Source: an uncultured Lentisphaerota bacterium (GTDB lineage: Bacteria; Verrucomicrobiota; Kiritimatiellia; CAIQIC01). Taken from it: a stretch of 64,000 nucleotides of DNA. Shown here one piece after another: positions 44,181-56,717 of this stretch. The stretch lies in NCBI GenBank assembly GCA_903896925.1, contig CAITZM010000175.1, positions 62,001 through 126,000 on the forward strand. The letters are read 5' to 3'. Each line of letters begins with the position of its first letter. The stretch's first letter is position 1. Both the position numbers and the translations under genes were made by a program. Under the pieces are notes generated by a model, which searched no databases, was not told the origin of the DNA, and saw only the letters and a list, made by a program, of their open reading frames with translations.

Positions 44181-44203
44181 TGTGATGAGATAAGAAACAA
44201 CTT

Positions 44204-44225
44204 GGCAGTTAGCCCTTTAGCTGCC
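44204..44225 (+). promoter_or_regulatory. Leader hairpin upstream of hdrC
   Basis: GGCAG (44204-44208) pairs with CTGCC (44221-44225) around a loop containing TTAGCCCTTTAG. The hairpin lies in the predicted 5' leader, 27 nt before the start codon. It may affect mRNA stability or translation. It matches no riboswitch I know. Confidence 0.35.
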
Positions 44226-44252
44226 CACCGAACGTTTCACCAAGGTAGGGTC

Positions 44253-44891
44253 ATGAAAATTGAACGGACCATCAAGTATGAGGCGGACCGGGTCAAGGGT
44301 TTCGGCGACGAGGTCAGCAGCGTACCCGGCTGCGAGAAGTTGCAAGCCTGTATCCAGTGCGGCACGTGCTCCGGCGTGTGCCCGCTGAGCATCTACATGG
44401 ATTACTCCCCGCGCCAGGTGATGGCCATGGTGCGGTCGGATTTCAAAAACGAGGTACTCACGAGCCACACCGTCTGGCTGTGTGCATCATGTTATCAGTG
44501 TACGGTGGATTGCCCGCGCGAGATCCGCATCACCGATATCATGTATGAGCTCAAGCAGCGTGCGCTCCAGGAGGGCATCTATCCGAAGAAGTTCTCCATC
44601 CCCGTGCTCGCCAAGGAATTCTACAAGATGGTCTACCGCTACGGCCGCGTCAGCGAGAACCTCCTGGCCATGACGATGTTCCTGAAGTCGAGCCCGCTGG
44701 AGGCGCTGAAGATGTGGCGGCTCGGGCTGGGCCTGATCCTGCGCGGCCGCTTCCCGCTCACGCTGGAGAAGATCAAGCGCCGCGACGAACTCGGCCGCAT
44801 GATGAAGGTGGTGGACCAGGTGAAGATCAACAAGCTGCATGATGAACTGAAACAGGCACGCCAACATGTGGCGGCCAGGAGCCAGGCATGA
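44253..44891 (+). CDS. hdrC: Heterodisulfide reductase subunit C-like ferredoxin protein
   Basis: About 212 residues from ATG 44253, preceded by a weak GGTAGGG site; the track start at 44202 would fall inside the leader hairpin region. Two [4Fe-4S] motifs are present: 'CIQCGTCSGVCP' (about residues 33-44) and 'CASCYQCTVDCP' (about 76-87). The C-terminal helical part ('KEFYKMVYRYGRVSENLLAM') fits HdrC. It carries electrons between HdrA and the catalytic subunit HdrB in the cytoplasm. First gene of six, with its stop overlapping hdrB by ATGA. Confidence 0.92.
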   Translation: MKIERTIKYEADRVKGFGDEVSSVPGCEKLQACIQCGTCSGVCPLSIYMDYSPRQVMAMVRSDFKNEVLTSHTVWLCASCYQCTVDCPREIRITDIMYELKQRALQEGIYPKKFSIPVLAKEFYKMVYRYGRVSENLLAMTMFLKSSPLEALKMWRLGLGLILRGRFPLTLEKIKRRDELGRMMKVVDQVKINKLHDELKQARQHVAARSQA

Positions 44892-45775
44892 CCACGAAAT
44901 ATTCCTATTTCCCGGGGTGCTCGCTCAAGGGCATCGGCCGCGCCTACGAGGAGAGCCTGTTGCCGGTCCTGCGCGCATTGGACGTGGAGTTGGAGGAACT
45001 GGAGGACTGGAACTGCTGCGGCGCGACGGCCTACATGGCGATTGACGAGGTCAAGGCCTGTGTGCTTGCCTCGCGCAACCTGGCGATGGCAGAGAAGCTG
45101 GGCCACAAGGAGCTGGTCGCGCCGTGCAGCGCCTGTTATCTGGTGTTGAACAAGACGAAGCACTACCTGCAGGATTCGCCCGCCGTGCGCGGCGTCATCG
45201 AAAAGGCGCTGGCCGAGGTCAACATGACCTACAGCGGCAACACGCCGGTGCGGCATCCGCTGGATGTGATGATCCATAGCATCGGCCTCGACGCGATCAA
45301 ACAGCGCGTCAAGCGCCCCTTGACCGGGCTGAAAGTGGCGCCCTACTACGGCTGCCAGATCGTGCGGCCCTATTCAACCTTCGATGACCAGTATAACCCG
45401 ACGACGATGGACCGGCTGCTGGAGGCGATCGGCTGTACGATCGTGCATTTCCCGCTCAAGACCCGCTGCTGCGGCGCGAGCCTGACGGGCACGTTGCCCG
45501 AACCGGGACTGCTGTGCGCCCGGGACATTCTCGCGGAAGCCATCACGCGGGGCGCCGACCTGATCGCCACCGTCTGTCCGCTGTGCCAGTTCAACCTGGA
45601 CGGCTATCACGACAAGATCGCCAAGAAGTGGGGGCCGCACCGGATCCCGACGGTCTATTTTACGCAGTTGATGGGCCTGGCCTTCGGGCTGGGCGAACGC
45701 GAGTTGGGCCTGCACCGGGGGTTCGTTCCGATGCAGCCGCTGCCGGCTCCCGTGCCGGTCGGGGTGGGGGTGTGA
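44888..45775 (+). CDS. hdrB: Heterodisulfide reductase subunit B-like protein (two CCG domains)
   Basis: 295 residues. Two CCG (cysteine-rich) domains are visible. The first has 'YFPGCSLKG', 'WNCCGATAYMA' and 'PCSACYLV'; the second has 'YYGCQIVRP', 'RCCGASLTG' and 'CPLCQFNLDGY'. In methanogens these cysteines bind two non-cubane [4Fe-4S] clusters that reduce the CoM-S-S-CoB disulfide. A bacterium without those thiols must use another acceptor, perhaps a different disulfide or another protein. Overlaps hdrC (ATGA); 36 bp separate it from hdrA. Confidence 0.92.
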   Translation: MTTKYSYFPGCSLKGIGRAYEESLLPVLRALDVELEELEDWNCCGATAYMAIDEVKACVLASRNLAMAEKLGHKELVAPCSACYLVLNKTKHYLQDSPAVRGVIEKALAEVNMTYSGNTPVRHPLDVMIHSIGLDAIKQRVKRPLTGLKVAPYYGCQIVRPYSTFDDQYNPTTMDRLLEAIGCTIVHFPLKTRCCGASLTGTLPEPGLLCARDILAEAITRGADLIATVCPLCQFNLDGYHDKIAKKWGPHRIPTVYFTQLMGLAFGLGERELGLHRGFVPMQPLPAPVPVGVGV

Positions 45776-45811
45776 GGCGCAACGCGGGACTTTCCCGGTG
45801 GAGCAAAGCAC

Positions 45812-47824
45812 ATGGATAAGCCAAGCAAGCAAACGGTTCGCATAGGATTTTATATCTGCCACTGCGGCTCGAACATTGCCGCCATGGTGGATTGTCCGGC
45901 CGTGGCCCGGTTTGTCGGGACCCTGCCGCACGTCGTGCTCTCGCGCGACTACAAGTACATGTGTTCCGACCCCGGTCAGGAGCTGATCCAGAAGGACATC
46001 TCCGAGCACCAGCTCAACCGCGTGGTGGTGGCCTCGTGCTCGCCGCTGTTGCACGAGCACACGTTCCGCGGCGCCGTCGAGGCCGGCGGGCTGAACCCGT
46101 TCTTCTTCCACATGGTCAACATCCGCGAACACGACTCGTGGGTGCATACCGATCCGGCCGAGGCCACCGCGAAGGCCAAGGAGCTGGCGCACGCCGCGAT
46201 CATGCGCGTGGCCATGCACAAGGCCTTGGAAGTGAAAAAAGTCCCGGTCCATCCGGACGTGCTCGTCGTCGGCGGCGGCATTGCGGGCATCCACGCGGCG
46301 CTGACGCTGGCGAACGCTGGCAAGAAGGTCTTCCTCGTCGAGCGCGAGCCGTCCATCGGCGGCCACATGGCCCAGTTCGACAAGACGTTCCCGACGCTCG
46401 ACTGCGCGGCGTGCATCCTGACGCCGAAGATGTCGGCCGTCGGCACGCACCCGAACATCACGCTGCTCTCCTACTCCGAGGTCACCAAGCTCGACGGCTA
46501 CGTGGGCAACTACACGGCGACCGTGAAGCGCAAACCCCGCTACATCAGCGAGGACAAGTGCACCGGCTGCCAGGAGTGCATCGCGAACTGTGTTTACAAG
46601 GAGCCGAAGTTCCCCGACGAGTTCAACGAGGGGCTCGGCAAGCGCAAGCCGGTCTACATCCCGTTCCCGCAGGCCACCCCGCAGGTGGTCGTGATCGACC
46701 CGCAGACCTGCCTGAACTTCCGCAACGGCGAGCTGACGGGCAAGTGCAAGAAGTCCTGCGTCGCCGCGTGCGGGGACAAGGAGGCGATCGATTTCAGCCA
46801 GACGGAAACCTTCCAGGAACTGAAAGTCGGCACGGTCATCGTCACGACCGGCTTCCAGGCCTTTGACGCGAAGCGCATGCCGCAGTACGGCTACGGGAAA
46901 TTCCCGAACGTGTACACCGCGCTCGAGATCGAGCGGCTGGTCAACACGTCCGGCCCGACCGCCGGCCACGTCGTCCTGCGCGACGGGAAGACGGAGCCCA
47001 GGAGCATCGGCATCATCCACTGCGTCGGCAGCCGCGACAAGAAGACCAACCGCTGGTGCTCGCGCGTGTGCTGCATGTTCTCGCTGAAGCTCGCGCATCT
47101 CCTCAAGGAGCACACCGGCGCCGAAGTCTATAATTTCTACATCGACATGCGCGCGCCGGGCAAGGGCTACGAGGAATTCTACGACAAGCTGCTTGAGGAG
47201 GGCGTGCACTTCATCCGCGGGCGCGTCGGCGAGGTCACGGACTGGGCCCGGACGCCGGACGAGGAGGGCAAGCTGGTCATCCGCGTCGAGGATACGCTCG
47301 CCGGCTACGTGCGGCGCATCCCCTTCGACATGGTCGTGCTCGCCACCGGTCTCGAGCCCCACGCCGATGCGCAGGACGTGCGCCGGATGCTTAACATGAG
47401 CTGCGGGTCGGAAGGCTTCTTCCTCGAGCGCCACCCGAAACTGGCGCCGGTCAGCACCTTCACCGAGGGCATCTTCCTCGCCGGCTGCTGCCAGGGTCCG
47501 CGCGACATCCCCGACACCGTCGCCCAGGCCGGCGCCGCCGCCGCCGAGGCGCTCGCCCTGATCGACAAGGGCTTCATCGAGCAGGAGCCGAACACCGCCT
47601 TCATCCTCGAGGACGAGTGCTGCGGCTGCAAGTCCTGCATCCCGCTGTGCCCCTATACCGCGATCACGTTCGACGCCGCCAATAAGAAGGCCGTGATCAA
47701 CGAGGCGCTCTGCAAGGGCTGCGGCACCTGTGTCGCCGCGTGCCCGTCCGGCACGATCGTTCAGAACCTGTTCGACGACGAGGAAATCTTCAGCGAAATC
47801 GAGGGAGTGCTCGCCCATGAGTAA
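45812..47824 (+). CDS. hdrA: Heterodisulfide reductase subunit A-like flavoprotein (bifurcating subunit)
   Basis: 670 residues. An N-terminal 'GFYICHCGSNI' segment and a Cys-rich region precede the FAD-binding Rossmann motif 'VVGGGIAGIHAALTLANAG' (about residues 150-170) with 'VEREPSIGGHMAQ'. [4Fe-4S] motifs are 'CTGCQECIANC' mid-protein and 'CCGCKSCIPLCP' and 'CKGCGTCVAACP' near the C-terminus. The order matches HdrA, whose FAD bifurcates electrons from H2 to ferredoxin and to HdrB. It overlaps mvhD by 8 bp. A GTGGAG sequence before the start serves as a modest ribosome-binding site. Confidence 0.92.
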   Translation: MDKPSKQTVRIGFYICHCGSNIAAMVDCPAVARFVGTLPHVVLSRDYKYMCSDPGQELIQKDISEHQLNRVVVASCSPLLHEHTFRGAVEAGGLNPFFFHMVNIREHDSWVHTDPAEATAKAKELAHAAIMRVAMHKALEVKKVPVHPDVLVVGGGIAGIHAALTLANAGKKVFLVEREPSIGGHMAQFDKTFPTLDCAACILTPKMSAVGTHPNITLLSYSEVTKLDGYVGNYTATVKRKPRYISEDKCTGCQECIANCVYKEPKFPDEFNEGLGKRKPVYIPFPQATPQVVVIDPQTCLNFRNGELTGKCKKSCVAACGDKEAIDFSQTETFQELKVGTVIVTTGFQAFDAKRMPQYGYGKFPNVYTALEIERLVNTSGPTAGHVVLRDGKTEPRSIGIIHCVGSRDKKTNRWCSRVCCMFSLKLAHLLKEHTGAEVYNFYIDMRAPGKGYEEFYDKLLEEGVHFIRGRVGEVTDWARTPDEEGKLVIRVEDTLAGYVRRIPFDMVVLATGLEPHADAQDVRRMLNMSCGSEGFFLERHPKLAPVSTFTEGIFLAGCCQGPRDIPDTVAQAGAAAAEALALIDKGFIEQEPNTAFILEDECCGCKSCIPLCPYTAITFDAANKKAVINEALCKGCGTCVAACPSGTIVQNLFDDEEIFSEIEGVLAHE

Positions 47825-48344
47825 CGAATGGCAACCGCGCATCGTTGCGTTTTTCTGCAACTGGTGCACCTACACCGCGGCGGACCTGGCCGGCGTCTCG
47901 CGCCTGAAGTACGCCTCCAACACGCGCGTCATCCGGCTGATGTGCTCCGGCCGCGTGGACCCGCAGTTCATCCTCGACGCGCTCGCCAAGGGCGCCGACG
48001 CCGTCCTCATCGGCGGCTGCCATCCCTTCGACTGCCACTATGCCGAGGGGAACTACAAGTGCCTGCGCCGGTTCCAGCTGCTCAAGCGCATGCTGATGGA
48101 CATGGGCATCGAGGCCGGGCGCTTGCGGCTGGAGTGGATCTCCGCCGCCGAGGGCGAGAAGGTCAAGCGCGTGATCAACGAACTGACCGAGACCGTCCGC
48201 CAGCTCGGCCCGCTCGGCATCCCGCAGCAGTTCGCCGAATGGGACAAGGAAATGGAACAGTTCGCCGCCCACGTGGAGGCGGGTGAGGCGTTGAAGACGC
48301 CCTGCGCCGAACATGCCCCGACCCAGGAGCCCGCTCATGTCTAA
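47817..48344 (+). CDS. mvhD: Hydrogenase delta subunit (MvhD/FlpD-like iron-sulfur protein)
   Basis: About 175 residues from ATG 47817, overlapping hdrA by 8 bp. Conserved Cys strings 'FFCNWCTYTAADLAG', 'LMCSGRVDP' and 'GGCHPFDCHYAEGN' identify the MvhD/FlpD family, which carries a [2Fe-2S] cluster and passes electrons from the hydrogenase to HdrA. The Ala/Glu-rich tail has no known role. Its 3' end overlaps mvhG by 8 bp, the same spacing as at its 5' end, consistent with tight co-translation. Confidence 0.92.
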   Translation: MSNEWQPRIVAFFCNWCTYTAADLAGVSRLKYASNTRVIRLMCSGRVDPQFILDALAKGADAVLIGGCHPFDCHYAEGNYKCLRRFQLLKRMLMDMGIEAGRLRLEWISAAEGEKVKRVINELTETVRQLGPLGIPQQFAEWDKEMEQFAAHVEAGEALKTPCAEHAPTQEPAHV

Positions 48345-49311
48345 ACCCAAAGTCGCTTTCTACTGGTGTGCCTCGTGCGGCGGCTGCGAAGAGACCGTCG
48401 TGGACCTCGCCGAGGATATTCTCGGCGTGGTCGAAAAGGTGGACATCGTCCTCTGGCCGGTTGCGATGGACTTCAAGTACAAGGACATCGAGGCCATGCC
48501 CGACAAGTCCATCACCGCCACCTTCCTCAACGGGGCGATCCGTTCGACCGAGCAGGAGGAGATGGCGCGTATGCTGCGCCGCAAGAGCGTGTTCCTGATC
48601 GCCTACGGCGCCTGCGCGCACACCGGCGGCATCCCGGCGCTCGCCAACCAGTTCCCGCGCGAGCAGATCCTCAAGTTCAACTACGAGGATGCTCCCACGC
48701 TCGTCCCGGGCGAGAAGACGCGCCCGCAGCTCTCGTGCACCGAGGACGGCCGCACGGTGACACTGCCCCAGCTGCACAACGTGGTGCGCGCCCTCGACCA
48801 GGTCGTGGACGTGGACTACTACGTCCCCGGCTGCCCTCCGACCCCGAAAATAACGCGCGCTGCCGTGGACGCGCTGCTCTCCGGCAACCTCCCCCCTAAG
48901 GGCACGGTCATCGGCCCGGACCACGCGCTGTGCGAAGAGTGCGAGCGCAAGGACACCAAGCCCGACAAGTGGGACTTCGTCGAGTTTAAGCGGCCGCATC
49001 AGAAATTGATGGATGAGAAATGCTTTCTCGCGCAGGGCGTCGTTTGCATGGGCCCGGCCACGCGCGCCGGCTGCGAAGCGGCCTGCACCTCCGGCGGCAT
49101 GCCCTGCACCGGTTGCTTCGGCGGGACCTCCCGCGTGCGCGACCAGGGCGCCAAGATCCTGTCCTCGATCTGCTCCAACCTCGCCGCGAAGGAGGAGGAC
49201 GAGATCGACAAGACGCTCGCCGGCATCCCCGATCCCGTCGGCACCTTCTACCGCTACGGTCTGGCCAAGAGCATCCTCCGCCGCAAGCTGAACCTTCCCT
49301 CCAACCCTTGA
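48337..49311 (+). CDS. mvhG: F420-non-reducing-type [NiFe] hydrogenase small subunit
   Basis: About 324 residues from ATG 48337. 'FYWCASCGGCEETVVDLAED' holds the first cysteines of the proximal [4Fe-4S] cluster, followed by 'GACAHTGGIPALANQ' and 'VPGCPPTPK'. The C-terminal half has further clusters of cysteines ('CEECERKD', 'CMGPATRAGCEAACTSG', 'CTGCFGG') for medial and distal clusters. No Tat signal is present, so the enzyme is cytoplasmic, as expected of group 3c. It carries electrons from the NiFe site to MvhD. Confidence 0.92.
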   Translation: MSKPKVAFYWCASCGGCEETVVDLAEDILGVVEKVDIVLWPVAMDFKYKDIEAMPDKSITATFLNGAIRSTEQEEMARMLRRKSVFLIAYGACAHTGGIPALANQFPREQILKFNYEDAPTLVPGEKTRPQLSCTEDGRTVTLPQLHNVVRALDQVVDVDYYVPGCPPTPKITRAAVDALLSGNLPPKGTVIGPDHALCEECERKDTKPDKWDFVEFKRPHQKLMDEKCFLAQGVVCMGPATRAGCEAACTSGGMPCTGCFGGTSRVRDQGAKILSSICSNLAAKEEDEIDKTLAGIPDPVGTFYRYGLAKSILRRKLNLPSNP

Positions 49312-49326
49312 GGCATAAGAACCGTT

Positions 49327-50856
49327 ATGAATTCCGAAGCTGAAAAAGTCTTTAATGCCGGTGCTGTCCGCGCGAATGCCGCCTACGCCGGCGCGCGCCG
49401 CAACATCACGATCAACCCCATCACCCGCCTCGAAGGCCACGGCAAAATCGATATCTTCCTCGACGGCAAGGGTGATGTCGAACGCGCCTATCTACAGGTG
49501 CCGGAGCTGCGCGGCTTCGAGGTTTTCAGCCTCGGCCGGCCCGCCGAGGACATGCCGCAGATCACCAGTCGCATCTGCGGCGTCTGCCCCACGGCCCATC
49601 ACATGGCCGCGACCAAGGCGCTCGACAGCCTCTACAACGTCGAGCCGACCTCCGCGGGCCGTAAGATCCGCGAGTTGGTCTACAACGCCTTCACGCTGGA
49701 AGATCATGCGCTGCACGTCTTCGTCCTGGGTGGTCCCGACTTTATCGTCGGCCCCGAGGCACCGCCGGAACTGCGCAACATCGTCGGCGTCATCGGCAAG
49801 GTCGGCCTCGAGGCGGGTAAAAAGGTCATCTCGATGCGCCGCCGCGTCCGCGAGATCACGAGCTACTTCGGCGGCAAGGTCGTGCATCCCGTGCTCGGCC
49901 TGCCCGGCGGCGTCAGCAAGGCGCTCAAGGCCGAGGATCTGGCGAAGTTCAAGGAACTCGCCAAGGACGGCGTCGAGTTCGCCGACTGGACGCTCGGCGT
50001 CTTCAACGCGATCGTCCTCGACAATCCCGATTACGTGACGATGATCACGTCCGACGCCTATACCCACAAGACCTGCTACATGGGCACGGTGGACGCCAAC
50101 AACAAGGTCAACTTCTACGACGGTGCGACCCGTGTCGTCGACTGCAACGGCAAGGAAGTCTGCAAGTTCACCGCGCGGCAATACCGCGACTTCATCGCCG
50201 AGCACACCGAACCGTGGTCCTACATGAAGTTCACCTTCCTCAAGAACCGCGGCTGGAACGGGTTTGCCGAAGGACCTGAGAGCAGCATCTACTCCGTCGG
50301 CCCGCTCGCGCGGCTCAACGCCGCCGACGGGATGGCCACGCCCAAGGCGCAGGCGGCCTACGAGGAGTTTTACAAGACCCTTGGCGGCAAGCCGGTCCAC
50401 CACACGCTAGCCAACCACTGGGCGCGCGTCATCGAGATGATCTACGCCGCCGAGCGGATCGAGGAGTTGCTGAACGATCCCGAGATCACCAGCCCCGACG
50501 TGCGCCGCATCCCGACCGCCATCCCCACCGAGGGCATGGGCATCGTCGAGGCCCCGCGCGGCACGCTGTTCCACCATTACAAGACTGATGCGAACGGCCT
50601 GATCACGATGGCGAACATGGTCGTCGCCACCGGCAACAACGCCGCCCGCATCGCCATGAGCGTCGACCGCGCCGCCAAGGGACTGATCAAGGGCGGACAC
50701 GTCACTGAGGGCCTGCTGAACAAGGTCGAGATGGCCTTCCGCGCCTACGACCCGTGCCTCGGCTGCGCCACCCACACGCTCCCCGGGCACATGCCGCTGA
50801 TGGCCAAGATCTACAATCCGCAGCGGGAAGTGATTCAGGAATTGATCCAAGACTGA
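49327..50856 (+). CDS. mvhA: F420-non-reducing-type [NiFe] hydrogenase large subunit
   Basis: 509 residues. The two NiFe-binding signatures are present: 'RICGVCPTAHH' (about residues 82-92) and 'DPCLGCATH' (about 475-483). 'NPITRLEGHGKI' at the N-terminus is also characteristic. After the final His comes an extension of about 26 residues (starting 'TLPGHMPL') that would normally be removed by a maturation protease. Neither that protease nor hyp genes are visible here. It splits or forms H2, and with HdrABC and MvhDG should couple H2 oxidation to ferredoxin reduction. Last gene of the operon; a 75-bp hairpin follows 50 bp downstream. Confidence 0.93.
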   Translation: MNSEAEKVFNAGAVRANAAYAGARRNITINPITRLEGHGKIDIFLDGKGDVERAYLQVPELRGFEVFSLGRPAEDMPQITSRICGVCPTAHHMAATKALDSLYNVEPTSAGRKIRELVYNAFTLEDHALHVFVLGGPDFIVGPEAPPELRNIVGVIGKVGLEAGKKVISMRRRVREITSYFGGKVVHPVLGLPGGVSKALKAEDLAKFKELAKDGVEFADWTLGVFNAIVLDNPDYVTMITSDAYTHKTCYMGTVDANNKVNFYDGATRVVDCNGKEVCKFTARQYRDFIAEHTEPWSYMKFTFLKNRGWNGFAEGPESSIYSVGPLARLNAADGMATPKAQAAYEEFYKTLGGKPVHHTLANHWARVIEMIYAAERIEELLNDPEITSPDVRRIPTAIPTEGMGIVEAPRGTLFHHYKTDANGLITMANMVVATGNNAARIAMSVDRAAKGLIKGGHVTEGLLNKVEMAFRAYDPCLGCATHTLPGHMPLMAKIYNPQREVIQELIQD

Positions 50857-51852: not shown

Positions 51853-52707
51853 TTACTTACCCAAGCACTTTTCGATTGCTGCCGCCGTGTGGATGGCCGT
51901 CGTATCGAAGACGGGCAGGCCGATGTCTTTCTGCTGGAGCAGCAGCGGGATTTCAGTGCAGCCGAGGATGATGCCGGCGGCACCGTCTTCCTTGATGAGC
52001 CGTTCGATGATCTGCAGGAAACGGCGCTTGGCGGCCGGCTCGATCTGCCCCCGGCACAGTTCGTCGAAAATGATGGTGTTGATATAGTCGCGCTCCTGGA
52101 GGTTGGGCGTGACAACCTTGAGGCCGCGCCGCTCCAGCCGCCCGCGATAGAAGGGCTGCTCCATGGTGTACTTGGTGCCCAGCAACGCCACGGTGCGCAC
52201 GCCCTTTGCCTGTACTGCGGCGGCGGTCGCATCGGCGATGTTCAGGATGGGGATTCCCACCTCTTTCTCGATGTGGTCGGCCTGCGAATTCAAGGTGTTG
52301 GAGGCGATGACGAGGAAGTCCGCGCCGCCGCGCTTGAGCCGCTGCGCGGCATCCACCAGGGTGGCACGCAGCGGCACCCAGTCGCCGCGATCGCTCAAGC
52401 GCTCCTGCTTGGAAAACTCGTCGAACTCGATGGAAAACATCAGAATCTGCGCGGAGTGCAGGCCACCCAAGCGGTCGCGGATCATCTCGTTCATCAGGCG
52501 ATAGTATTCGGCGGACGAAACCCAGCTGACGCCGCCGATGATGCCGATGGTCTTGATCGGCTGTTGGGGTGTGACGGCCGTGCCCTGGAGCGATGCGCGG
52601 GCCGTCGCCTGCCGCGCATCCGCCGCGTTTTGCGTGGCGCATCCGCTGAACGCCATGCTGATCAAAAGTACCAGGCCCAACTGGTGCTGCTTCCCTATCG
52701 TGTTCAT
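51853..52707 (-). CDS. Lipoprotein-type aspartate/glutamate racemase family protein
   Basis: About 284 residues from ATG 52707, which opens a lipoprotein signal ('LVLLISMAFSGCATQ'); the longer track start adds an unlikely leader. The mature protein has the racemase fold: 'TIGIIGGVSWVSSAEYYRLM', 'FDEFSKQERLSDRGDW', 'GADFLVIASNTLNSQADHIE', 'VALLGTKYTMEQPFYRGRL' and 'GIILGCTEIPLLLQQ'. The second catalytic Cys (GCTE) is present. The first catalytic position, Cys in most Asp racemases and Thr in E. coli YgeA, is Ser here, and the following His is Asn. Export is unusual because racemases of this family are normally cytoplasmic. A role on cell-wall or extracellular amino acids is possible. Confidence 0.82.
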   Translation of the reverse strand: MNTIGKQHQLGLVLLISMAFSGCATQNAADARQATARASLQGTAVTPQQPIKTIGIIGGVSWVSSAEYYRLMNEMIRDRLGGLHSAQILMFSIEFDEFSKQERLSDRGDWVPLRATLVDAAQRLKRGGADFLVIASNTLNSQADHIEKEVGIPILNIADATAAAVQAKGVRTVALLGTKYTMEQPFYRGRLERRGLKVVTPNLQERDYINTIIFDELCRGQIEPAAKRRFLQIIERLIKEDGAAGIILGCTEIPLLLQQKDIGLPVFDTTAIHTAAAIEKCLGK

Positions 52708-52862
52708 CGATCGGTCTGCTTTCGTTAATAGTTGGATGAGCCACATTACCCATCCGTAGCGGTGCCACGTCTTGCGGGCACAGAAGTGGTGGACAGGCTA
52801 GGGCTACTTGCTTGTTATTCAAAGGTAAAGTAGCGGCACGTGTCGTGCGGATAAGCCTGTTG

Positions 52863-53835: not shown

Positions 53836-55089
53836 TCAATGGGCGGAAAGCTTGGCGTGCTCCCACGCCACGGCCCCGGGCGCGGACCAGGTAGGGATGC
53901 CCAAGCTGCTGCGCACGCGTTCCTGAACCAGCAGCGCCCGGCGGTACGCCCGTGTGATGCTTTCGTTTACCTTCGTGTCATACAGGTCCAGCAGCAGATT
54001 GCGGGGCGCGAACAGGCCTGACTTGGTGCGGTCCCGCCACGCTCTGACATAGCTCAGGTATTTCTCATAGTCGGCGTTCACCGTGGCCTCGGACAGGCCC
54101 TGCACCTCGCTGACCATCTCGGCCAGGCCCGCGGGCGTGATGCGCCGGTGCTCGGCGATCTTGCGTGAGAAGTCCAGGGTGGTTTTCTGGGAGTTGAGGA
54201 TGTGCTTGGCCTGGGTGACGTTGAGTCCTTTCCAGCCCGCATTCAGCCAGGCGAAGTTGGCCACCGCGGTTTCGTTGGAACTGAGTGCGATGTAGACGCT
54301 CAGCGTGGTGGAATGAAATATTTGGGACGTCATCCAGGTCATGCCGGCGACATTCAGCCCCGGCTTTTCGCTGTAATAGAAGAGACCGCGGTCGAGCGGA
54401 CCCACCAGGGCGCCGCGGTTGCTGAGGGTGGAAGGCGCGGTCGTTTCGGCACAGGAGAACAGGACCTCGCGGCCGCCGACCTTGCACCGGAGAAACGTGC
54501 GCGTGTTGGCGTAGGAGAAATAACTGCCCGACTCCGGGTTCGGGGTGATTTCTTCCGTGCCCTTGATCTCGCTCGTCACGTACTGTTGGGCGCCGGTCGG
54601 GCCCGCCTTGATGCAGGCATAGGCCTGCTGCATGGCGTTGCTGTCCTGGCAGGCCGAGTAACGCAGCGAGGCCGGGAAGACGGCGTAGTCGGGAATCCCG
54701 GGGTTGAAGTTGAGGTCCAGATAATGCTGCAAGGGCGCCGCGATTGTAACGATGTACGCCGCGCCTTCCGCGCTGGCGAGCGGCGGAAGTTTCCAGCCGC
54801 TGTCCTGGGCGCTCGCCTGGATGACGAAGTCGACCAGCGCGCTTTCCTCGGCCGGGATGAAGGGGTGCTGCCCGGGCTTGGCGACAAAAGCAAACAGGTG
54901 GTCCACCGCGCTTTTGGCGGAGGCGGGGAAGGGGCGCATGTTCTCGAGAATAGCGGCGGCCGAGGACGCCTGCTTGCCGGCTTCAACTGCGACCGGCGTG
55001 CCGCTGGTGTTGTCCTGGCCCGAGGCGGATGAGATGGTCGCGGCCCAACAAAAGGCAACCCCTGTCAAGATGGCCGGCAAAATGTTCAT
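53836..55089 (-). CDS. Secreted protein of unknown function
   Basis: About 417 residues from ATG 55089 (signal peptide MNILPAILTGVAFCWAATISSASG). The longer track start has an Arg/Pro-rich leader that does not look like protein. I recognise no family. Visible parts are an N-terminal helix-rich stretch ('ASAKSAVDHLFAFVAKPGQH'), a central beta-rich domain ('YFSYANTRTFLRCKVGGREV', 'SCAETTAPSTLSNRGALVG') and a helical C-terminus ('YRRALLVQERVRSSLG'). A short predicted leader and promoter precede it. Confidence 0.72.
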   Translation of the reverse strand: MNILPAILTGVAFCWAATISSASGQDNTSGTPVAVEAGKQASSAAAILENMRPFPASAKSAVDHLFAFVAKPGQHPFIPAEESALVDFVIQASAQDSGWKLPPLASAEGAAYIVTIAAPLQHYLDLNFNPGIPDYAVFPASLRYSACQDSNAMQQAYACIKAGPTGAQQYVTSEIKGTEEITPNPESGSYFSYANTRTFLRCKVGGREVLFSCAETTAPSTLSNRGALVGPLDRGLFYYSEKPGLNVAGMTWMTSQIFHSTTLSVYIALSSNETAVANFAWLNAGWKGLNVTQAKHILNSQKTTLDFSRKIAEHRRITPAGLAEMVSEVQGLSEATVNADYEKYLSYVRAWRDRTKSGLFAPRNLLLDLYDTKVNESITRAYRRALLVQERVRSSLGIPTWSAPGAVAWEHAKLSAH

Positions 55090-55097
55090 GTCTGTTA

Positions 55098-55127
55098 ATT
55101 CTAATGAAAAGGGGGCCCGCTTCGCAA
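55098..55127 (-). promoter_or_regulatory. Predicted short-leader promoter (minus strand)
   Basis: Read on the minus strand: TTGCGA (55122-55127), 18-nt spacer, TAGAAT (55098-55103), eight bases to the ATG at 55089. Confidence 0.45.
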
Positions 55128-55308
55128 GGCGATTCAGAACGGTTTTGCGCGGCCCCGCCGGGCGATGGCTTCGAAAGGCCGGACAGGCTGCAGGCCGCTG
55201 ACTGCGGAGGGCCTGCCCGACGCTCGTGAACAACTGGGCCTGCGAGCGACGCCGCGCGGCGACAGGTGGTGGTGCGTTTATAGCCGCGAGGTACCGGAGG
55301 AAATCGTC

Positions 55309-56499
55309 CTATTTCAGCGCATCCTCCGCCGACTTGCCGATGACATCCATGCTGCGCTGGAGCGGGTCCGTCTTGGCCCGCGCCGGCGAGGGTGCCACCG
55401 TGCGCGGCGCCTGGTAGGTCCGCAGCAATTCCAGGACCCGGGCAATCTCTTTGTCCGCGACATTCATCCGCTTGAGACAGCGGCGCACCTCGGCGGAATT
55501 TTCATCCTCGTAGGCCAGCGGAACCGCCTGCCTGAACAGGGTGGCTACCGGGTCTTGGGTGGCCAGCACCTGTTGCATCCGCGCCATTTTTTCGCCCTGC
55601 AGGACGGCCACCTGGCGATCGGCGGCGGCCCGTTGCTCCTGGATGCTGCGCCGCAGTGCCGCCTCCTGTTCGGCGGCCTGCCGTTTGAGCTCGCGCTGTT
55701 TTTGGTCGAAGGGTTCGGTCTCTTTGAGCAGCAGCAGTCCCCACTGGCTGAGCAGCCGGATTTCCTCCTGCGTCAGCTTGCGCGCGCCAGCCGCCTGGCC
55801 GGGAGCGACGATGGTGACCCAGAAACCATCCACGCGCGACTCCGCCGGCTTCTGTCCGACCAGTGCGAGCGGCGGACCGACCACGGTGTTCCACGTCACG
55901 CCGACGACCGGGATGATGATGGTGTTCACCCCGAGATTCCAGACACCGGCGACGGCGGAATCGAGCGCGTGATAGGCGGGGACTATGGCGGCCCCGCTGA
56001 CGAGGCCTCCCGCGGTGCCGACGGTGCCCAGCGCGCCGCGGAACACGGTTTCGACGGTGGATTCCAAAAAGGCCCACGGATAGGCGAGCCACCAACCGAA
56101 GACGCGATGCTGGGTGCGCTCGCGGGCCACGGAGAAGTTATCGCCCCAAGCCCGCGGAATACCCTTGATCGTAAACCCCAGGCCGCACTCCTTCAGCGCC
56201 CAGTCGAAGCACGCCATGCTGCCTTCTTTCAGCGAGTGGTATTTATTGGCTTCGATGTATTCGTGGAAGTCAGCGCCGGCATCCTTGAGATGTTCCCAGG
56301 CATAGCTGGCGGGTGGCGAGTACCCGGGACAAATCCAGACGTCATACCAGGTTCCTGCCGCATCCTGTATCCGGCCCAGGCGCAGCAAATCTTTCTTTTG
56401 CTGCCAGGACAGGAAATAGCCGGGATCCTCGGCCCTGGCCAGCGGGGACAGGCCCAGGAGGAAGGCTGCACAGAGTGTGCCCAAGATTGCTCGTTTCAT
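55309..56499 (-). CDS. Secreted protein of unknown function with coiled-coil segment
   Basis: About 396 residues from ATG 56499 (signal peptide MKRAILGTLCAAFLLGLSPLARA); an in-frame ATG at 56511 is the alternative. The N-terminal domain has 'CFDWALKECGLGFTIKGIPR' and several aromatic residues. The middle is hydrophobic and Gly-rich ('GALGTVGTAGGLVSGAAIVP' and 'LGVNTIIIPVVGVTW') and may be membrane-associated. Next comes a charged helix rich in Gln, Glu, Arg and Ala (about residues 260-315, 'KQRELKRQAAEQEAALRRS'), a likely coiled coil. The family is not recognised. Confidence 0.72.
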   Translation of the reverse strand: MKRAILGTLCAAFLLGLSPLARAEDPGYFLSWQQKKDLLRLGRIQDAAGTWYDVWICPGYSPPASYAWEHLKDAGADFHEYIEANKYHSLKEGSMACFDWALKECGLGFTIKGIPRAWGDNFSVARERTQHRVFGWWLAYPWAFLESTVETVFRGALGTVGTAGGLVSGAAIVPAYHALDSAVAGVWNLGVNTIIIPVVGVTWNTVVGPPLALVGQKPAESRVDGFWVTIVAPGQAAGARKLTQEEIRLLSQWGLLLLKETEPFDQKQRELKRQAAEQEAALRRSIQEQRAAADRQVAVLQGEKMARMQQVLATQDPVATLFRQAVPLAYEDENSAEVRRCLKRMNVADKEIARVLELLRTYQAPRTVAPSPARAKTDPLQRSMDVIGKSAEDALK

Positions 56500-56717
56500 T
56501 TGGTCATCCATTCTTTGCCGGAATTCCGGAGAGGGCGAGGTAGACACCGCGCCCCGGCGGTGCAACGCAGTGAAGCTGCGATGCGGCTCTTTTTATTTAG
56601 GCTACGGCGAAACGGGTGGTGTGTGCAAGCGCAGAAGCGGCGGTGCAGAAGCGGCGGCATGGAAGCGTCCCGCTTGCGGGAGCGTGTGGGCTGCGGGGAA
56701 AAATTGCGGAAATATCA

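Follow-up and report, generated by a model that had tools for sequence, protein, structure and literature searches.

The stretch of DNA analysed here (the window, 64,000 nucleotides) contains, at positions 51853–52707 of the minus strand, a complete coding sequence for a predicted exported Asp/Glu racemase of 284 amino acids with Ser at the first catalytic site, hereafter referred to as the Ser-type racemase. Coordinates of the ORF are exact, with translation beginning at an ATG at 52707. A longer in-frame start is present at 52746; in the alignment with the orthologue of a congener (genome G003, 86% identity) the match begins at the shorter start. The GC content of the gene is 0.625, similar to that of the neighbouring genes, and its GC3 is 0.85.

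The Asp/Glu racemase domain occupies residues 52–284 (51856–52554; this and all features of the protein given below lie on the minus strand). PF01177, the sole Pfam match of the window protein, covers the whole domain and scores 147 bits (E 1e-42) against a cut-off of 31 bits; the match to the amino acid racemase family TIGR00035 has 209 bits, where the cut-off is 93. The AlphaFold model of the protein (pLDDT 83, with the first ~50 residues ill-defined) has the two-domain Asp/Glu racemase fold, with target-normalised TM scores of 0.91–0.92 to EcL-DER (PDB 5ell/5hra; 0.92 for the domain). Among solved structures, Yersinia 3ojc and E. coli EcL-DER (5hqt/5ell) come closest. These results place the window protein in the Asp/Glu racemase superfamily and confirm the fold proposed for it in an earlier note on this DNA. 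Upstream of the domain lies a variable linker (residues 24–51; 52555–52638) modelled with low confidence, pLDDT being below 50 over residues 22–47. Comparison of the window gene with its G003 counterpart gave a dN/dS of 0.08 for the core and 0.55 for the N-terminus, as would be expected if a signal and a linker precede an enzyme under constraint. The racemase core is under strong purifying selection, and the value of 0.08 rules out that the gene is drifting or is a pseudogene.

The active site was examined by alignment to EcL-DER (YgeA). The EcL-DER segment C82-T83-N84-T85-M86-H87 aligns with A135-S136-N137-T138-L139-N140 of the window protein (ASNTLN motif; 52288–52305), placing Ser136 (52300–52302) at the position of Thr83 and Asn140 (52288–52290) at that of His87. 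Both replacements had been read correctly in the earlier note, and the Ser is found branch-wide. The second catalytic Cys, Cys197 of EcL-DER, is retained as Cys250 (51958–51960) within a GCTE motif (residues 249–252; 51952–51963) and does not vary in alignment A1. The counterparts of EcL-DER T125, T128 and T198 are likewise Thr, and the Cys and contact residues are retained across the Ser-type branch. A branch-specific loop at residues 99–105 (SKQERLS; 52393–52413), with E102 and R103 invariant in A1, belongs to a loop that exceeds its EcL-DER counterpart by 3 residues. The catalytic residues are, then, neither a Cys pair nor Thr/Cys, which does not exclude superfamily membership, since active members with Ala at the first site have been reported. 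Replacement of Thr by Ser at this site is a mild change.

Judged by its sequence, the window protein is a relative, not a member, of the EcL-DER/YgeA equivalog (PDB 5ell, 5elm, 5hqt, 5hra; NF007569). It shares with EcL-DER the fold, 49% identity in structural alignment, the second Cys and the Asn-Thr motif, but it scores 247 bits against the NF007569 cut-off of 417, has Ser136 and Asn140 where EcL-DER has Thr83 and His87, and carries a predicted lipoprotein signal where EcL-DER is cytosolic. With its Thr/Cys pair EcL-DER works in one direction (PMC8142540). RacX of Halocola resembles the window protein in its EcL-DER-like fold, single Cys and non-Cys first site (Ala79) and is active in both directions; it differs in having Ala rather than Ser, and no signal peptide is mentioned in the text of that paper (PMC12838360). 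PH1733 of Pyrococcus horikoshii (PDB 2zsk) likewise has the fold (38% identity in structural alignment) and a non-Cys first site, but its motif is AANTPH and no extension precedes its domain. This protein, with Ala at that site, has been reported to lack activity on Asp and Glu (cited in PMC12838360), which we counted against activity of the window protein. Glutamate racemase MurI (TIGR00067) is a distant relative from the same superfamily but is cytosolic, with two Cys, and the window protein scores 33 bits against its cut-off of 147. The cut-off of 190 for cysteate racemase CuyB (NF052483) was also not reached (105 bits). BsrV, the periplasmic broad-spectrum racemase of Vibrio cholerae, belongs to the alanine-racemase family and is PLP-dependent. 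Its likeness to the window protein is limited to location outside the cytoplasm (PMC7890096); the sequences are unrelated, the window protein having PF01177 alone in Pfam and Asp/Glu racemases as its top structural matches. A literature search found no description of an exported Asp/Glu racemase, which does not prove absence, and the Ser-type branch is apparently undescribed so far.

Residues 1–23 of the window protein, MNTIGKQHQLGLVLLISMAFSGC, consist of a stretch with one Lys, a hydrophobic stretch and the lipobox F20-S21-G22-C23 (52639–52650). Residues 1–22 (52642–52707) form the predicted lipoprotein signal peptide and Cys23 is the predicted lipidated residue. The layout is shared with G003 (lipobox LSGC) and with loci L006, L007, L011, L013, L021, L023, L098 and L112. 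The signal was called by a simple test of our own, not a dedicated predictor: upon shuffling of the N-terminal extension, equal hydrophobicity plus a lipobox appeared in 0.05% of trials. The presence of only a single Lys ahead of the hydrophobic stretch was counted against an exported racemase. Type I or lipoprotein signals are predicted in most members of the Ser-type branch, both archaeal and bacterial; canonical CTNTMH relatives begin directly at MKTIG, without a signal. The proposal of an exported lipoprotein thus holds as a prediction, and as a branch-wide pattern. The earlier note had also looked to relatives combining the same signal with the ASNTLN motif, and this was borne out in part: the motif recurs across many phyla and a lipobox is found in G003 and others, but the signal seems to have been lost in some Ser-type members (L014, L018–L020, L097 and L145), a further point against our reading, as it indicates that the protein can do without export. 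Signal-less orthologues with Cys or Thr had been named as evidence to the contrary, and here the outcome is mixed: cytosolic Thr relatives do exist, but on separate branches, and within the Ser-type branch Ser is invariant.

A scan of 84,980 species genomes yielded 20 loci at 54–71% identity to the window protein, all with the motif [AC]SNT[LMV][NH]. Matching records are labelled Lentisphaerae, Geobacteraceae, Syntrophaceae, Desulfomonile, Thiodictyon, Nitrospirae, Chloroflexi, Omnitrophota, Auribacterota, Deltaproteobacteria, Methanothrix, Methanomicrobiaceae and Puia, and one of the 20 loci belongs to a named strain, Pseudodesulfovibrio pelocollis SB368. Canonical YgeA-like proteins, mostly CTNTMH, signal-less and starting with MKTIG, score clearly lower. 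Whole-genome searches covering about 1,900 genomes revealed a sparse distribution in bacteria: 2 of 388 genomes in the window-phylum sample, with G003 as a further case from the genus; 3 of 395 for the phylum of P. pelocollis; and 1/149, 1/198 and 1/237 in the phyla of L010, L009 and L011, where the single genome was each time the starting one. The racemase is commoner in methanogens, occurring in ~12 of 232 genomes of the order of G902. Contamination of metagenome-assembled genomes is unlikely as the sole explanation, since two genomes of the window genus carry the gene; the match in P. pelocollis SB368, copies on contigs longer than 2 Mb (G867, G902) and the fact that nearly all bacterial copies are distinct also speak against it. 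Single bins, for instance the one labelled Puia, may be wrong. In the order of the window organism, 0 of 20 genomes (G000–G019) had a MurI match exceeding the curated threshold, and in the window genome PF01177 was found in the racemase gene alone; replacement of MurI by the Ser-type racemase is ruled out, the gene being too rare in the order to be its source of D-Glu.

Several loci encountered in these searches are of separate interest. A methanogen-order genome carries two Ser-type genes ~5 kb apart (G1722:C40:205916-211774), one with a lipoprotein signal (L134) and one without (L145). In another genome of a methanogen order (G834:C1) the gene for a Ser-type lipoprotein racemase is split over two frames (L112/L127), through either pseudogenisation or sequencing error. 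An unrelated Asp/Glu racemase from the window phylum (L051; G228:C15:76434-76931), with a canonical CNT-H motif and GCTE, has the lipoprotein-like N-terminus LFVLNLLTSCG; export within the superfamily may have arisen more than once.

Phylogenetic trees were computed with the motif columns left out. All Ser-type rows fell into one branch (26 rows, support 100/98; 33 rows, support 95/88 in the larger tree), which is nested inside methanogen YgeA-like racemases. An earlier-branching protein from a methanogen order, L141, has the lipobox ASGC yet retains Thr83, His87 and the short loop; together with the Ser-type branch it forms a 34-row group with support 100/99 in the larger tree. The loop is 3 residues longer than that of EcL-DER in all intact Ser-type rows measured. 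The tree requires one Thr-to-Ser change, two His-to-Asn changes and four changes of signal state. From this we infer that export came first, followed by the Thr-to-Ser change plus loop insertion, and then by His to Asn. The 17 bacterial rows cluster together with weak support (75/93), and a single transfer of the Ser-type racemase from archaea to bacteria is plausible. The branch looks as if it arose in methanogens and then spread sparsely into anaerobic bacteria of several phyla. Its deepest members are methanogens (Methanomicrobiales, Methanothrix), and these have no murein. A cell-wall job is for this reason unlikely as the general role, which also weakens the earlier idea of a new reaction on peptides released from the cell wall.

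No conserved gene neighbourhood was found: when the flanking ORFs of 29 loci were compared, just scattered regulators and antisense ORFs emerged, with no transporter or receptor gene consistently adjoining the racemase. The neighbouring GDPD gene and three ORFs of unknown family beyond it had no match in any relative locus compared. Lack of a conserved partner fits a stand-alone enzyme better than a component of a transport system. The racemase gene adjoins, in convergent orientation, a heterodisulfide reductase/hydrogenase-like cluster (44202–50856; order hdrC, hdrB, hdrA, mvhD, mvhG, mvhA), and an hdrA-mvhD-hdrC-hdrB set lies directly upstream of the Methanothrix copy L015 (2–3868). Hdr/mvh-like genes are absent near the racemase in G003 and the other loci, save for a 67-aa match in L127; the two occurrences are probably coincidence, and a functional link was rejected. 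Two ORFs of 465 and 418 aa at 53836–56565 of the minus strand have no match in Pfam or NCBIfam.

We infer that the window protein is probably an active racemase that is exported, needs no cofactor and uses a Ser/Cys pair; strong constraint and the conservation of the Cys and contact residues favour a working enzyme. Further points in favour of this reading are the fold and family, the signals predicted in most of the branch, the single Thr-to-Ser change within a coherent evolutionary series, and the activity of Thr/Cys (EcL-DER; PMC8142540) and Ala/Cys (RacX; PMC12838360) enzymes. The protein would cross the cytoplasmic membrane and be anchored there as a lipoprotein. In its pseudosymmetric two-domain fold, Cys250 would serve as the base/acid at one face of the alpha-carbon of the substrate, and on the other face either Ser136 would serve as a weaker partner or solvent would reprotonate, so that direction is probably biased. 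Substrate choice is probably altered by the longer loop, in which the Glu-Arg pair is invariant. The substrate would be free amino acids, either periplasmic or in the immediate surroundings of the cell, with D and L forms interconverted there.

The earlier note had also raised the possibility of a racemase-derived periplasmic binding protein. The lipoprotein would in that case bind or sense a ligand and be catalytically dead through Ser136 and Asn140. Two first-motif residues are indeed changed and solute-binding proteins are commonly lipoprotein-anchored, but we regard this as unlikely: Cys250, the motif Asn-Thr and the T125/T128/T198 equivalents are kept in a core under strong purifying selection, no transporter or receptor accompanies the gene, Ser is chemically close to the Thr that functions in EcL-DER, and neither Ser for Thr nor Ala (Halocola RacX, PMC12838360) excludes racemase activity. 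Alternatively, an exported superfamily enzyme could run another reaction (elimination, isomerisation or decarboxylation) mainly from Cys250 after its partner base was weakened. Arylmalonate decarboxylase has the same fold by structure match, superfamily and analogous two-base enzymes switch reaction on replacement of one Cys, a Cys-to-Thr change turns the proline-type enzyme into a dehydratase (PMC8142540), and the Ser-type branch has a loop of its own; nevertheless, in both sequence and fold the window protein stands closest to amino acid racemases, and the evolutionary series runs via the Thr/His form seen in L141, which makes a change of reaction quite unlikely. Production of D-amino acids for cell-wall editing or signalling is very unlikely given the archaeal deepest members and the rarity of the gene among relatives of the window organism, even though 20 of those relatives gave no MurI match above the curated cut-off and such a role exists in bacteria, the multispecific periplasmic racemase BsrV yielding products that enter peptidoglycan (PMC7890096).

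For an active exported racemase, free environmental amino acids would be the simplest remaining substrate. In soils and sediments D-amino acids form and bacteria use them via racemases (PMC3960212; PMC5516024). The most plausible purpose would be the use of D-amino acids from dead biomass, that is, D-to-L salvage; if EcL-DER is a guide, a bias towards D is just as possible as one towards L. Tentatively, we suggest that in methanogens a racemase may have been moved out of the cytoplasm and may have acquired Ser at the first catalytic position together with a new active-site loop. Having spread to anaerobic bacteria, it would act at the cell surface, independently of partner proteins, to racemise environmental amino acids, an extracellular source or sink of D-amino acids in anoxic settings.

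The Asp/Glu racemase superfamily is already known, and its members have hitherto been treated as cytoplasmic enzymes; what appears to be new is the exported Ser-type branch. The natural stepwise series Thr/His, Ser/His, Ser/Asn lets the control of direction by a weakened base pair be tested. Models of microbial turnover in deep sediments based on D:L aspartate assume abiotic racemisation, and the one examined (PMC5516024) mentions racemases just for conversion of D- to L-forms when proteins are rebuilt from necromass. If the proposal is true, enzymes of an exported Ser-type branch, common to methanogens and anaerobic bacteria, would be able to racemise amino acids extracellularly under anoxic conditions.
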